64,000 nucleotides of DNA from Paenibacillus sp. FSL R7-0337 (GTDB taxonomy: Bacteria > Bacillota > Bacilli > Paenibacillales > Paenibacillaceae): assembly GCF_037969875.1 (NCBI RefSeq), contig NZ_CP150218.1, forward strand, positions 2,728,001-2,792,000, read 5' to 3'. The notes under the pieces are model-generated. The model saw only the letters and a list, made by a program, of their open reading frames with translations, ran no database searches and was not told the origin of the DNA. This document shows, one piece after another, positions 2,734 to 32,720 of this stretch. Every line of letters begins with the position of its first letter. The first letter of the stretch is position 1. Position numbers and translations under genes: made by a program.

Positions 2734-2969
2734 ACATGGTGAAAAATTCAATTCCCCTTGCAGGCTAAACAGCCTTCTCACCAGCAAAAAGTCGGACTGT
2801 ATGATCGGTGAAAGTTCAAGTTTGCAGGAGCGGTTGCTCGTTGGATCTAATCTGACGGGTGGTCGGGAGGGCGGTAAAGTTGGATGAGCTCTGAACCATT
2901 TTTCTGAAGCTCGGAAGGGGCGAGAAAAAAGTGAGTTTCTGTTTGTCTGGGCATGAAATAATCAGACAT

Positions 2970-3001
2970 AAAAAGAAGCTGGCAATTTTGTCGCCAGCTT
3001 C
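2970..3001 (-). terminator. Intrinsic terminator on the minus strand
   Basis: A nine-base-pair perfect stem (GAAGCTGGC/GCCAGCTTC) with a nine-base loop is followed on the minus strand by a run of five T. It lies downstream of the broken minus-strand genes at 3067-3468 and may once have ended their transcript. Confidence 0.7.
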
Positions 3002-3066
3002 AATTACCCCTCACTTGAAATATCCCTTGGACAACTCAGATTACTTACAAAAAGGTAGTACAAAGT

Positions 3067-28965: not shown

Positions 28966-30867
28966 CTAACGCTGCGGAAGCAGCTTCACATATTCATCAG
29001 ATAAGCCCATCAGCTTCAGAATGTAGTCGTAATCGCTCTGATAGGCACTGAAATCCTTAACTGGCTCATGCGTATCCAGCGAGACCGCCTCACCATCCGC
29101 GAAGCTTGTACCGGGCACAAACAACACTTCATCATTGAAAAACGAGCCTGTCGGCAAATAATAGCGCATGCCCACCACGTTGCGGTCCACATTCAGCAGA
29201 TCATGCCCGAACGCCGTAAACCCCTCGTCCTTCAGCGATACCCCGAGCAGATTGGCTACCGTTGGCAGCACATCCAACTGTCCGCCGGTCCGCTCCACAA
29301 CCTGCCCCTGCTTCATGCCAGGCACGTGGATCACCAGCGGAATGTTAAACCGGCTGATCCGGTCGTCATACTTGATGCCAAGCGTCTCCTCCACCTGCTC
29401 CGCCGGGACGTCCTTAGGCTGCAGGCCGAAATGGTCACCGTACAGCACCAGCACAGTATCCTCCCACATGCCCTGCTGCTTCAATCCGTCGATTAGCGTG
29501 CCTATTGCATAATCCGTATAGTTCACCGCGCTCAGATAATCGCCCAGCATCGTGCCCTGGAGCTTGTCCGGTACCTGAATGCGGCGGAAGCTGTCCGGCA
29601 CCTTGAACGGATGATGGCTGGAGGCCGTCACCAGTTGGGCATAGAAAGGCGTACCCTTCTGATGCAGCACCGCCAGTTTCTCTACGGCAGTTGCATAGAG
29701 CTGCTCATCGGAAGCCCCGAACGAATTGAAATGGTCATTTTTGAAGGAGCCTTTATCATAGTAGCCGTTGAAGCCAAGGGCCGGATACAGCTCGTTCCGG
29801 TTCCAGAAGCCCACCTTGTTCACATGGAACGTGTACGCCTCATACCCCTTATCCCGCAAAAGCCGCGGCAGTCCCGGCAGCTCCCGGTCTCCGAAGCCTG
29901 TGGGCATGGCAAGCGAAGCGATTGGATAGATTGAGGTGTTGCTCATGAATTCCGCATCCGAGGTATTGCCCGGACCTACCTGCTGATACACATGCGGGAA
30001 ATAGAAACCCTCTCCGGCCAGGCCATTCAGCACCGGCGTCAGCTCCTGACCCTCCAGTGACTGATGCAGCGGGAAATTCTGAAACGCCTCCAGTTGAATG
30101 ATGATGACATTCTTCCCCTTTTGCGATCCGTAATGCTCCGGCAGTCCGCCTGTCATAGCCTTGTAAGGATAGGTAGCCTCCAGTGCCTGCACCTTGGCTA
30201 TCGTCTCCTGAATATCACCGGTCCCGATGAGGCCGTTATCCTCCTGGGCCTTGATCGCTGCCACCACCTCATAACTCAGAAATCCGGCCGTCTCCGCCTG
30301 GACCAGCTCATTGGTAATTCCCCGGGCCGAATGAATCGAATACGCTGACAGCGAGCCGCCTCCAAGGATTGCCACCAGCAGCACCACCAGATAGATGCTC
30401 CGGGATCTGCGTACAGGCCGACTGTCCCTCTGCCACCGTTGTTCAGGCCCTCTCTTCCATCTGCGGAAGAGCGAATAGACCATCACTATCAGCAGATCGG
30501 CAAAAAACAGATAATCGACCCACTCAATCGTAGATTCTACACTCTCTTTTACCTGAAACACCTGGTTCAGCTCATAGAGCGCCAGATAGGTAGGCACCGA
30601 GCCGAAGTGATTGAAGTACACACTGGCCGCGAAGAGCAGCAGCGATAATAAGCCATTGAAGGTCCAGAAGACCCCTTTTCTCATCCGTCCAGGCGTAATA
30701 ACAGCCAGCACACCCAGCAGCAGGAGCACCGGCGCCAGATCCGCAGCGATCCACTCCCAGGCAATCCGGTCAAAGAACAGCCCTCTCAGCAGCAGCAGCT
30801 TCAGCCACAGCAGTCCCGCCACGATATAGAAATGCGCCTGTGCAGACGCAGGTTTGCCCTCTCTCAT
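28966..30867 (-). CDS. LtaS-family phosphoglycerol transferase (sulfatase fold)
   Basis: The 633-residue protein has about five N-terminal membrane segments and a large extracellular sulfatase-type domain. The catalytic Thr sits in GPGNTSDAEFMSNTS. Metal-binding regions are IIIQLEAFQNFP (Glu), LVLYGDHFGLQ (Asp, His) and TASSHHPF. It should transfer glycerol phosphate from phosphatidylglycerol to make lipoteichoic acid, or decorate another surface glycan. The following gene is a membrane glycosyltransferase candidate in the same transcript. Confidence 0.93.
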   Translation of the reverse strand: MREGKPASAQAHFYIVAGLLWLKLLLLRGLFFDRIAWEWIAADLAPVLLLLGVLAVITPGRMRKGVFWTFNGLLSLLLFAASVYFNHFGSVPTYLALYELNQVFQVKESVESTIEWVDYLFFADLLIVMVYSLFRRWKRGPEQRWQRDSRPVRRSRSIYLVVLLVAILGGGSLSAYSIHSARGITNELVQAETAGFLSYEVVAAIKAQEDNGLIGTGDIQETIAKVQALEATYPYKAMTGGLPEHYGSQKGKNVIIIQLEAFQNFPLHQSLEGQELTPVLNGLAGEGFYFPHVYQQVGPGNTSDAEFMSNTSIYPIASLAMPTGFGDRELPGLPRLLRDKGYEAYTFHVNKVGFWNRNELYPALGFNGYYDKGSFKNDHFNSFGASDEQLYATAVEKLAVLHQKGTPFYAQLVTASSHHPFKVPDSFRRIQVPDKLQGTMLGDYLSAVNYTDYAIGTLIDGLKQQGMWEDTVLVLYGDHFGLQPKDVPAEQVEETLGIKYDDRISRFNIPLVIHVPGMKQGQVVERTGGQLDVLPTVANLLGVSLKDEGFTAFGHDLLNVDRNVVGMRYYLPTGSFFNDEVLFVPGTSFADGEAVSLDTHEPVKDFSAYQSDYDYILKLMGLSDEYVKLLPQR

Positions 30868-31180: not shown

Positions 31181-32518
31181 TCAGGATAGCCGCGCGCTGC
31201 CCAGCAGTCTTTTAATGGAACAGTTCGCTTCATGAAGCACGACCTCTTTGTCGATGGTCTTCAGCAGCCCTGAGTGCATGAGAATCTCACCGTCAACCAT
31301 CGTTGTCTCCACATCAGCACGGGTGGCCGAGTAGACGATCCGCGAGATCGGGTCCACATCATAAGAGGGGAAGGTGTGAAAATTATAGAGATTAAGAATG
31401 GCCAGATCCGCCTTCTTGCCGACCTCGATGCTGCCGATCTGATCCTCCATCCCTACCGCCTTCGCGCCCCCGATCGTTGCCATCCGAAAGACGCTCCGGG
31501 CATCCATCGTAGTCGGGCCATGCGCGGGCTTCTGGATGACTGCCGCCAGACGCATCTCGTTGAACATATCCAGGTTATTGTTGCAGGGCGCGCCGTCTGC
31601 ACCCAAGCTGAGGTGAATATGGTCATGAAGCATGCCCGGTGTATCGGCAATGCCGGAGGCCAGCTTGAGGTTCGAGCCCGGGCAGTGGCTGACATGAACC
31701 CCGCGGTCCCGCAGAATCCGCTTCTCCTGCTCATCCAGCCAGACACAGTGCGCCAGAATCAGACGTTCGTTAGCCAGCCCCAGGTGATCCAGATAGACGA
31801 TATTGCGCATACCGGTCATCGCCTGCACAAGCTCGATCTCGCCCAGATTCTCGGAAGCATGGGTATGCACCTTCACCCCGTAACGGGCCGAGAGGCTCTC
31901 CACCTCCCGCAGCAGCGGCTCCGTACAAGAAATGACAAACCGCGGGGAAAAAGCATACTGAATCCGGCCGTTCGCATATCCGTTCCATTTCTCCAGCAGA
32001 TCCACACTCTCCTGCAGCGAAGCCGCCGTCTCCTCCTGCAGGGCCGCCGGTGCATCGGGGTTCTTCCGGTCCATCATGACCTTCCCTGACAGGGCGCGGA
32101 TACCGCTCTTCGCAATCGCCTGGAAGGCATAATCCGTATGATGTACCGTCTCCATATCCACGATGGTCGTTGTGCCGCTGGTGATTAATTCCCCAATGCC
32201 AAGCATGGCAGAATAGTACAGCGACTCCTCATCATGCGCCGCCTCCAGCGGCCAGATCCGCTTGCGCAGCCAGTCCATCAGCTCCAGATCATCCCCTTTG
32301 CCGCGAAACAGTGTCTGGCAGAGATGAATATGCGTCTGGATGAAACCGGGGATAACCGTCCGGTTCTTGGCGTCGATGACAAGCTCATCACCTCTCACTT
32401 CAAGGCCGGTGCCAATCTCCACAATCAGATCACCTTTGATGCGGATATCACCGTAAATAATGTCCTCCTGCTTGTTCATCGTAATAATCTCCGCATGCTT
32501 GATCAGGATATTCGCCAT
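31181..32518 (-). CDS. Amidohydrolase, probable guanine or related purine deaminase
   Basis: The 445-residue protein belongs to the metal-dependent TrzN/SsnA/MtaD amidohydrolases: PGFIQTHIHLCQTLFRG (metal His pair), VKVHTHASENLGEIE, LAHCVWLDEQE, HCPGSNLKLASG and SLGADGAPCNNN (catalytic Asp). Family members deaminate guanine, methylthioadenosine, S-adenosylhomocysteine or deoxyadenosine. A guanine-type riboswitch with ON-switch geometry lies directly upstream, which favours guanine or a guanine-derived purine as the substrate. ATG follows GGGGGAG by six bases. The gene stands alone between a promoter and a terminator. Confidence 0.85.
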   Translation of the reverse strand: MANILIKHAEIITMNKQEDIIYGDIRIKGDLIVEIGTGLEVRGDELVIDAKNRTVIPGFIQTHIHLCQTLFRGKGDDLELMDWLRKRIWPLEAAHDEESLYYSAMLGIGELITSGTTTIVDMETVHHTDYAFQAIAKSGIRALSGKVMMDRKNPDAPAALQEETAASLQESVDLLEKWNGYANGRIQYAFSPRFVISCTEPLLREVESLSARYGVKVHTHASENLGEIELVQAMTGMRNIVYLDHLGLANERLILAHCVWLDEQEKRILRDRGVHVSHCPGSNLKLASGIADTPGMLHDHIHLSLGADGAPCNNNLDMFNEMRLAAVIQKPAHGPTTMDARSVFRMATIGGAKAVGMEDQIGSIEVGKKADLAILNLYNFHTFPSYDVDPISRIVYSATRADVETTMVDGEILMHSGLLKTIDKEVVLHEANCSIKRLLGSARLS

Positions 32519-32563
32519 TGTCTTCTCCCCCTAGTCTTGTGATGTCCGGCTGATCTGTAACAC

Positions 32564-32604
32564 AAAAAGGCCACAAAAATATGCCTCAGCATATTTTCGT
32601 AGCC
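32564..32604 (-). terminator. Riboswitch-controlled terminator
   Basis: On the minus strand GGCTACGAAAATATGC pairs with GCATATTTTTGTGGCC around a TGAG loop, followed by TTTTT. The 5' arm contains the 3' strand of the aptamer P1 helix (TACGAAAA), so aptamer and full terminator exclude each other. Confidence 0.85.
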
Positions 32605-32661
32605 AGAAATTTACGGTTCCCGGTAGAGACCCTTAAACCAATTATTAAGGATATACGAAAA
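32594..32661 (-). promoter_or_regulatory. Guanine-type purine riboswitch, predicted ON switch
   Basis: Read on the minus strand, an eight-base-pair P1 (TTTTCGTA/TACGAAAA) encloses P2 (ATCCTTAA/TTAAGGGT), with loop TAATTGG. The junction is CTCTACC and a short P3 is capped by the invariant CCGTAAA loop. The 3' junction reads GGCTA, whose C is the position that selects guanine; adenine sensors have U. The base before it is G, where most members have A. Because the P1 3' strand is also the 5' arm of the terminator, ligand binding should prevent termination and switch the gene on. Confidence 0.88.
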
Positions 32662-32690
32662 GGACTATTCAATTACTAATGAATAATCCA

Positions 32691-32720
32691 ATCATAGTCC
32701 AAAGACAACTTTCATGTCAA
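32691..32720 (-). promoter_or_regulatory. Promoter of the riboswitch transcript
   Basis: TTGACA (32715-32720) and TATGAT (32691-32696) on the minus strand are 18 bases apart. They lie about 30 bases upstream of the aptamer. Confidence 0.75.

Follow-up and report, generated by a model that had tools for sequence, protein, structure and literature searches.

A purine riboswitch stands ahead of an amidohydrolase gene in Paenibacillus sp. FSL R7-0337, and the locus raises the question of which purine the RNA senses, in which direction it switches the gene, and what the encoded enzyme acts on. We analyzed this locus within a window of 64 kb (the whole stretch of 64,000 nucleotides) and in related genomes. 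Computation shows an aptamer, structures that exclude one another, the conservation of both, the family and motifs of the enzyme, and a purine-gene context in relatives; from these we infer the ligand, the direction of control, and the substrate. The results make it quite probable that a guanine-I aptamer sits on a pbuE-like ON platform and drives a probable guanine deaminase.

The element was placed on the minus strand, the strand not having been given in the original prediction, and its features are listed in Table 1. Relatives of the gene were collected by a protein scan of genome contigs, which gave 346 relatives, and the best 80 were kept (75-99% identity over the best segments); an Rfam purine aptamer lies upstream in 75 of these best 80 of 346. 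The predicted promoter call is based on position and consensus match and not on the scan count, as two promoter-like sites were found in the scanned region against a mean of 1.6 for shuffles; terminator-like sites numbered four against 2.1. A sigma-70-type promoter pattern was matched in 38 of the 75 leaders. The inverted repeat that follows could act as an operator or as a hairpin at the 5′ end of the mRNA. Of the 75 leaders, 29 have some repeat before P1 whose arms reach at least 8 pairs, and by-eye reading finds a TATTC/GAATA-type repeat (8-12 pairs) in 25 of the 75, mainly in the window's own clade, with some paired changes and G-U wobbles among relatives. The next gene downstream (28966-30867, minus strand) matches lipoteichoic acid synthase at 284 bits against a cut-off of 970 bits, and no purine link of this gene was seen.

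Table 1 Features of the riboswitch locus in the window
Feature	Positions	Strand	Basis
Predicted sigma-70-type promoter, TTGACA (32720..32715), 18-nt spacer, TATGAT (32696..32691)	32691..32720	-	11/12 consensus positions
Inverted repeat GGATTATTCA..TGAATAGTCC, between -10 box and P1	32662..32689	-	Sequence scan
Guanine-type purine riboswitch aptamer, P1-P2-P3 three-way junction	32594..32661	-	RF00167, 70.3 bits
P1 5′ strand TTTTCGTA	32654..32661	-	Covariance-model alignment, folding
P1 3′ strand TACGAAAA, switching strand common to aptamer and terminator	32594..32601	-	Folding
C74, guanine-specifying base	32602	-	C in 75/75 relatives with aptamer
G73 in J3/1 strand, pairs with C in terminator	32603	-	G 73/75, A 2/75
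Intrinsic terminator stem-loop, 16 bp, 4-nt loop	32569..32604	-	-21.8 kcal/mol, z -8.5
Terminator U-tract TTTTT (U5)	32564..32568	-	Read from sequence
Ribosome-binding site AGGGGGAG	32525..32532	-	Read from sequence
PRK07228-family amidohydrolase, 445 aa, predicted guanine deaminase	31181..32518	-	Pfam PF01979; NF005557 709 bits; TIGR02967 255 bits

The Rfam model RF00167 matched the minus strand at 32678..32580 over the full model (1-102), with a score of 70.3 bits (E 2.3e-10) above the gathering score of 37, which places the element in the RF00167 family; this is the sole Rfam match within the 64-kb window at gathering thresholds. Our own covariance model, built from 30 aptamers including that of the window, scores it at 77.4 bits. 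The 99-nt aptamer region alone is unremarkable in stability (z -1.0). The CCGTAAA loop, the J2/3 junction (TCTCTACC), and C74 claimed in the original prediction are all present. The aptamer also carries U51, and J2-3 and J3-1 are free of insertions in the RF00167 alignment, all in agreement with the guanine-I type; U22, U51, and C74 are the contacts named in the accessible text of PMC9295807. The same text marks xanthine-II by U51G together with insertions in J2-3 and J3-1, and neither these marks nor the J2-3 and J3-1 insertions of guanine-II, as described there, were found in the window aptamer. C74 is present in all 75 aptamer-bearing relatives from the best 80 of 346. Judged by these features, the window aptamer is most likely of the classical guanine-I type with guanine as its ligand.

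The original prediction also suggested that the G before the specificity base, where A is usual, could alter affinity or ligand choice. G73 does stand in place of the Rfam consensus A, and the accessible text of PMC9295807 describes three-way-junction variants whose altered joining regions go with other purine ligands, so it is conceivable, though very unlikely in our judgment, that the aptamer senses xanthine, hypoxanthine, or 2′-deoxyguanosine. The xanthine-II marks are absent, and G73 gives way to A73 in 2 of the 75 leaders of the same gene, where the terminator partner is then U. A survey of the order, covering 45 genomes of which 37 had a match, bears on the same question. The best 134 of 142 matches were analyzed and the 8 weakest left out. 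The aptamer was located in 134 of 134 loci by a covariance model built from 30 of the aptamers later scored, which was used because extraction by regular expression had missed 49 of the 134 loci and mis-set some others. Bases 73 and 74 were read at a fixed offset from the model end, a reading that shifts by one base if P1 contains an insertion or deletion (L233 appears as GA by this offset and as A73 C74 by eye). On this reading, 51 of the 130 C74-type aptamers carry G73, 76 carry A73, and 3 carry T73, five of the 51 being guanine-II-like by eye; among the aptamers before purine permeases, 29 of 39 carry G73. G73 is thus a common natural state that gives no ground for expecting a different ligand, and we rejected it as a sign of a changed ligand. 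Guanine remains the predicted ligand.

The 3′ strand of P1, TACGAAAA, forms part of GGCTACGAAAATATGC, the 5′ arm of a stem of 16 bp that has no mismatches when G-U pairs are allowed; the original prediction had claimed this overlap of P1 and terminator. This stem at 32604..32569, followed by TTTTT, has a folding energy of -21.8 kcal/mol, compared with -5.3 +/- 1.9 for dinucleotide shuffles. Because the terminator uses the P1 3′ strand itself, bound P1 and the terminator are mutually exclusive, and a ligand that holds P1 is therefore predicted to prevent termination. In growing-length folds from the predicted +1 at 32684, P1 belongs to the best structure until about 32576, and the terminator state is ahead by 9 kcal/mol once the transcript reaches the U-tract. 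The pbuE (ydhL) adenine riboswitch of Bacillus subtilis reportedly has the same platform, with the P1 3′ strand in the terminator 5′ arm, and controls an efflux pump. In both elements the ligand is predicted to block termination, but pbuE has U74, specifying adenine, and an efflux pump where the window element has C74, specifying guanine, and a deaminase. The leader thus has the geometry of a transcriptional ON switch with a predicted direction, and the pbuE-like layout put forward in the original prediction is supported by folding and by its recurrence in relatives described below.

In the mechanism that we propose, the aptamer would fold first while the leader is transcribed. Without guanine, the downstream sequence would capture the P1 3′ strand and form the 16-bp terminator, and transcription would stop before the gene. 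With guanine bound, P1 would keep its own 3′ strand, no terminator would form, and the deaminase would be made. The deaminase would most likely convert guanine to xanthine, such that excess guanine would induce its own removal. An OFF switch, in which guanine binding raises termination as in xpt-pbuX, would agree with the accessible text of PMC9295807, which predicts OFF control for the guanine-I switches of Paenibacillus and ON control for guanine-II, and with the order survey, where 98 of the 130 C74-type aptamers fail the strict geometry test for ON switches. We nevertheless regard an OFF switch at this locus as extremely improbable, since the sole terminator seen uses the P1 3′ strand and so excludes bound P1, and the layout of the window is repeated in 74 of 75 relatives. 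Read from the sequence, neither a second terminator between the aptamer terminator and the start codon nor a separate anti-terminator before the gene was seen, and the OFF mode was rejected with no second terminator in view.

The original prediction had proposed a covariance search of the aptamer plus terminator in relatives. The Rfam model gave the aptamer in 75 of 80 relatives, and the terminator test in its strict form gave ON geometry in 74 of these 75, compared with 2 of 225 shuffled downstream regions; this control is a plain letter shuffle, three per locus, rather than a dinucleotide one, and also breaks up T-runs. All 75 pass the loose test. The loose classifier was the first one used; it tolerated long loops and failed to pick up L004 and L170, and the counts given here are from the refined, strict one, which may be wrong in counting the xpt-like L162, whose loop is long. 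The lone strict-test failure, L026, has an insertion in the terminator loop that makes a hairpin of about 95 nt with the stem kept. Among 62 distinct hairpins, position 73 pairs as G-C in 57, G-U in 3, and A-U in 2; position 72 pairs as A-U in 30, G-C in 20, and G-U in 8, with 4 unpaired; and positions 83-87 vary among several standard pair types. These counts use the fold predicted for each sequence by itself, a procedure biased towards pairing. The inner four pairs of P1 are invariant, so P1 gives no covariation signal. No aptamer match was found in 5 of the 80 relatives (L038, L041, L049, L080, and L086). In one of them, L038 of Paenibacillus validus, the leader at 2735-3003 has no model match and has seemingly lost P2 with P3 and the terminator kept; it is probably a decaying riboswitch.

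The pairing was followed in two further samples. In the genus sample, 44 of 61 genomes contain the gene over the NF005557 cut-off, and the aptamer accompanies it in 41 of the 44 (30 of 30 loci, 10 of 13 further loci, and the window), being absent within the roughly 600 bases searched upstream of L293, L295, and L296. In the class sample, 30 of 200 genomes have the gene over the cut-off, and only these 30 genes were screened for riboswitches. The aptamer was found in only 7 of the 30, the window being one of the seven, and all seven are ON by geometry; among the 23 counted as without it, L228 starts at a contig end and so could not show an aptamer. By these model matches, the riboswitch accompanies the gene almost throughout the genus but only here and there beyond it, a habit of a clade. 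In the order survey, 32 of the 130 C74 elements are ON by the strict test (G73 18/51, A73 14/76, T73 0/3), so that ON elements make up a substantial minority of the guanine-type switches of the order. G73 was also considered as a mark of ON switches and rejected: the proportion is 18 of 51 against 14 of 76 for A73, but the sequences are related, and many permease elements with G73 lack ON geometry (35 of the 39 aptamers before purine permeases are not ON and 4 are).

We then asked which substrate the sequence of the 445-aa protein favors. By score it belongs to NF005557 (PRK07228), named 5′-deoxyadenosine deaminase, at 709.3 bits against a cut-off of 522, and it scores 255.3 bits with the guanine deaminase model TIGR02967, below the curated cut-off of 375.4. 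The gene is the genome's best TIGR02967 match (255 bits, the next being 161). The best full-length PDB matches are 4dzh, an unnamed amidohydrolase, and 4f0r, an MTA/SAH deaminase; the 8-oxoguanine deaminase 7ww2 ranks behind these, and the guanine deaminases 6ohb and 2uz9 rank well behind. At the motif level, 4f0r has HSAM and PHAPY where the window protein has HLCQ and PRFVI, and 7ww2 has HMFQ, which keeps the Gln, but PCSPF compared with Q68 and PRF in the window protein. The best PDB matches of the PRF segment are clostridial 2i9u, human 2uz9, and yeast 6oh9, which are guanine deaminases or relatives and have PRF and HxSEN in common with the window protein; PRF as a general guanine deaminase mark is a reading from these few sequences. 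All 81 proteins compared, without exception, have Q68, PRF192-194, and HTHASEN218-224, and thus show the Gln, PRF, and HxSEN of a catalytic-type guanine deaminase. The accessible text of PMC13054789 describes the Gln as oxyanion-stabilizing, with 98.4% conservation in the cluster of canonical guanine deaminases.

These observations suggest that guanine is the most likely substrate of the enzyme, with xanthine as the product, and that the database name 5′-deoxyadenosine deaminase is likely wrong for it. Activity on 5′-deoxyadenosine is disfavored because the residues of 4f0r (M and PHAPY) are absent from the window protein. It is unlikely, in our view, that a guanine ON switch here controls an enzyme whose main substrate is 5′-deoxyadenosine, 8-oxoguanine, or N-alkylated guanine. 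Such a substrate would fit the NF005557 score, which exceeds its cut-off while that of TIGR02967 does not, and N2,N2-dimethylguanine can be the preferred substrate of guanine-deaminase-like amidohydrolases in the AtzB cluster (PMC13054789, accessible text). It would fit poorly with Q68, PRF, and HxSEN in all 81 proteins, with PRF and HxSEN as in the human, yeast, and clostridial guanine deaminases, with PCSPF in 7ww2 and M and PHAPY in 4f0r, and with a sensor of guanine type in all 75 relatives. The original assignment of the deaminase to guanine thus gains support from the motifs and from the purine neighbors of relatives, and guanine is the substrate we prefer. The genome contains five PF00383 proteins. 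RibD, TadA, and a cytidine deaminase score above the cut-off, and two others, one ComEB-like and one more of cytidine-deaminase-like kind, score below it. The guanine deaminase of Bacillus subtilis is of a small type, and none of the five looks like it.

Gene neighbors were examined as the two longest frames on each side and named by similarity to five of these neighbors taken as references. In the class sample, 16 of the 23 genes without a riboswitch have a purine-catabolism or purine-permease neighbor no more than about 1.5 kb away; these comprise 3 genes with urate oxidase, 1 with allantoate deiminase, 2 with a purine permease, and 10 with an XdhC-like gene beside them. None of the 7 neighborhoods with a riboswitch matches the same five reference proteins. 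The gene therefore often sits in a purine locus in this sample when it is without its own guanine sensor. Urate oxidase, allantoate deiminase, and an OHCU decarboxylase beside L256 exceed the NCBIfam cut-offs, and the permease beside L229 is Pfam PF00860. The ten XdhC-like genes stem from two genera, and the scanned one, at L245, is below the XdhC cut-offs (147/350 and 65/161.6). The genome of the window has no match at E 0.001 to xanthine dehydrogenase (PF20256, PF02738) or urate oxidase (TIGR03383), and xanthine would therefore need salvage or export; it may be salvaged or exported in this organism. The original prediction had called the deaminase catabolic, a description only half borne out in this genome, where these three models are unmatched.

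The element can be placed among known systems as follows. Relative to guanine-I switches (RF00167, xpt-pbuX type), it has the same three-way junction, L2/L3 loops, U51, C74, and joining regions without insertions; it differs in being ON by geometry, whereas guanine-I is predicted OFF in Paenibacillus (PMC9295807, accessible text), and in having G73, common in the order, instead of the consensus A73. Guanine-II and xanthine-II elements, as far as the same text describes them, also occur in Paenibacillus with purine ligands and are predicted ON (xanthine-II "in some examples"), but have J2-3 and J3-1 insertions and, in xanthine-II, U51G, neither of which the window element has. A xanthine-I (NMT1) switch on guanine-deaminase-like genes, the nearest case among the papers found, is described in the accessible text of PMC7373994; it senses xanthine and uric acid through an unrelated aptamer, is reported as OFF, and is linked to an enzyme model different from PRK07228 of the window gene. 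Canonical guanine deaminases (GuaD of E. coli, human, and yeast; TIGR02967) share with the window protein the amidohydrolase family, the catalytic Gln, PRF, and HxSEN, but the window protein scores 255 against their cut-off of 375 bits and is PRK07228 by score.

An adenine riboswitch precedes the adenine deaminase gene add in Vibrio vulnificus. There, as here, an ON switch sensing a base would drive the deaminase of that base; the window element differs in sensing guanine, as predicted, and in its deaminase family. Two U74 elements of the order survey, L129 and L166, have ON geometry and precede adenine-deaminase-like genes, and a 130-residue piece from L166 has TIGR01178 as its best match. 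We found no description of a guanine riboswitch paired with a guanine deaminase in the accessible open-licence literature. The word "deaminase" is absent from the main text of PMC9295807, and in their accessible parts PMC3519856 concerns a glycine riboswitch and PMC9430930 a purine riboswitch that precedes a nucleoside permease regulator. Aptamer and platform both belong to known kinds, and their combination and sign appear to be new.

If our reading is true, a guanine-I riboswitch with reversed sign drives the enzyme that breaks down the purine sensed by the RNA, a counterpart to the adenine riboswitches on adenine deaminases. The substrate of a large amidohydrolase family, over the NF005557 cut-off in 44 of 61 genus genomes, becomes directly testable, and its name, 5′-deoxyadenosine deaminase, is opposed by regulation, motifs, and, in relatives, gene neighbors. 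The chief gains would be that the name of an enzyme could be tested and corrected and that further guanine-ON genes come into view. We tentatively raise the possibility that guanine ON switches with a classical aptamer form a separate guanine-excess regulon in the order and in related Bacilli, opposite in sign to the non-ON purE-like, xpt-like, and most permease elements. Its possible members would be the guanine deaminase, an oxidoreductase-like gene (15 of 16 ON), XapX/DUF1427 (4 loci), and permeases (4 of 39). If such a regulon is real, it would give a first functional handle on the oxidoreductase-like and XapX/DUF1427 families as guanine-disposal genes, and the whole amidohydrolase family would be shown to be misnamed.

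Several other loci of the survey are of interest in their own right. The labels purE-like, xpt-like, phosphoribosyltransferase-like, and oxidoreductase-like were given by eye and, where scanned, from partial or sub-cut-off matches. C74 ON aptamers precede an FAD/NAD-binding oxidoreductase-like gene, a label from weak matches of a 130-residue piece, in 15 of 16 such loci of the order (L004, L119, L121-L124, L153, L161, L167, L170, L174, L177, L180, L198, and L209), one of them in the window's own genome (G000:C1:4666369-4666468). The same genome has one element that is guanine-II-like by eye, with extra J3/1 residues, at L006 (G000:C1:2531832-2531934). Its downstream gene encodes 186 aa and was read as phosphoribosyltransferase-like, which matches the gene association in the accessible text of PMC9295807; a 130-residue piece of this protein is without a Pfam match. 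Low-scoring aptamers with long inserts (38-43 bits with our own covariance model) at L211-L214 precede a membrane-protein-like family, of which the scanned 130-residue piece is likewise without a Pfam match, and all four are ON by the strict test. C74 ON aptamers also precede a membrane protein of about 54 aa, XapX/DUF1427, at L192, L196, L204, and L210, in four genomes of one genus; the L210 reading frame looks broken, and the L192 protein matches XapX at 71 bits.
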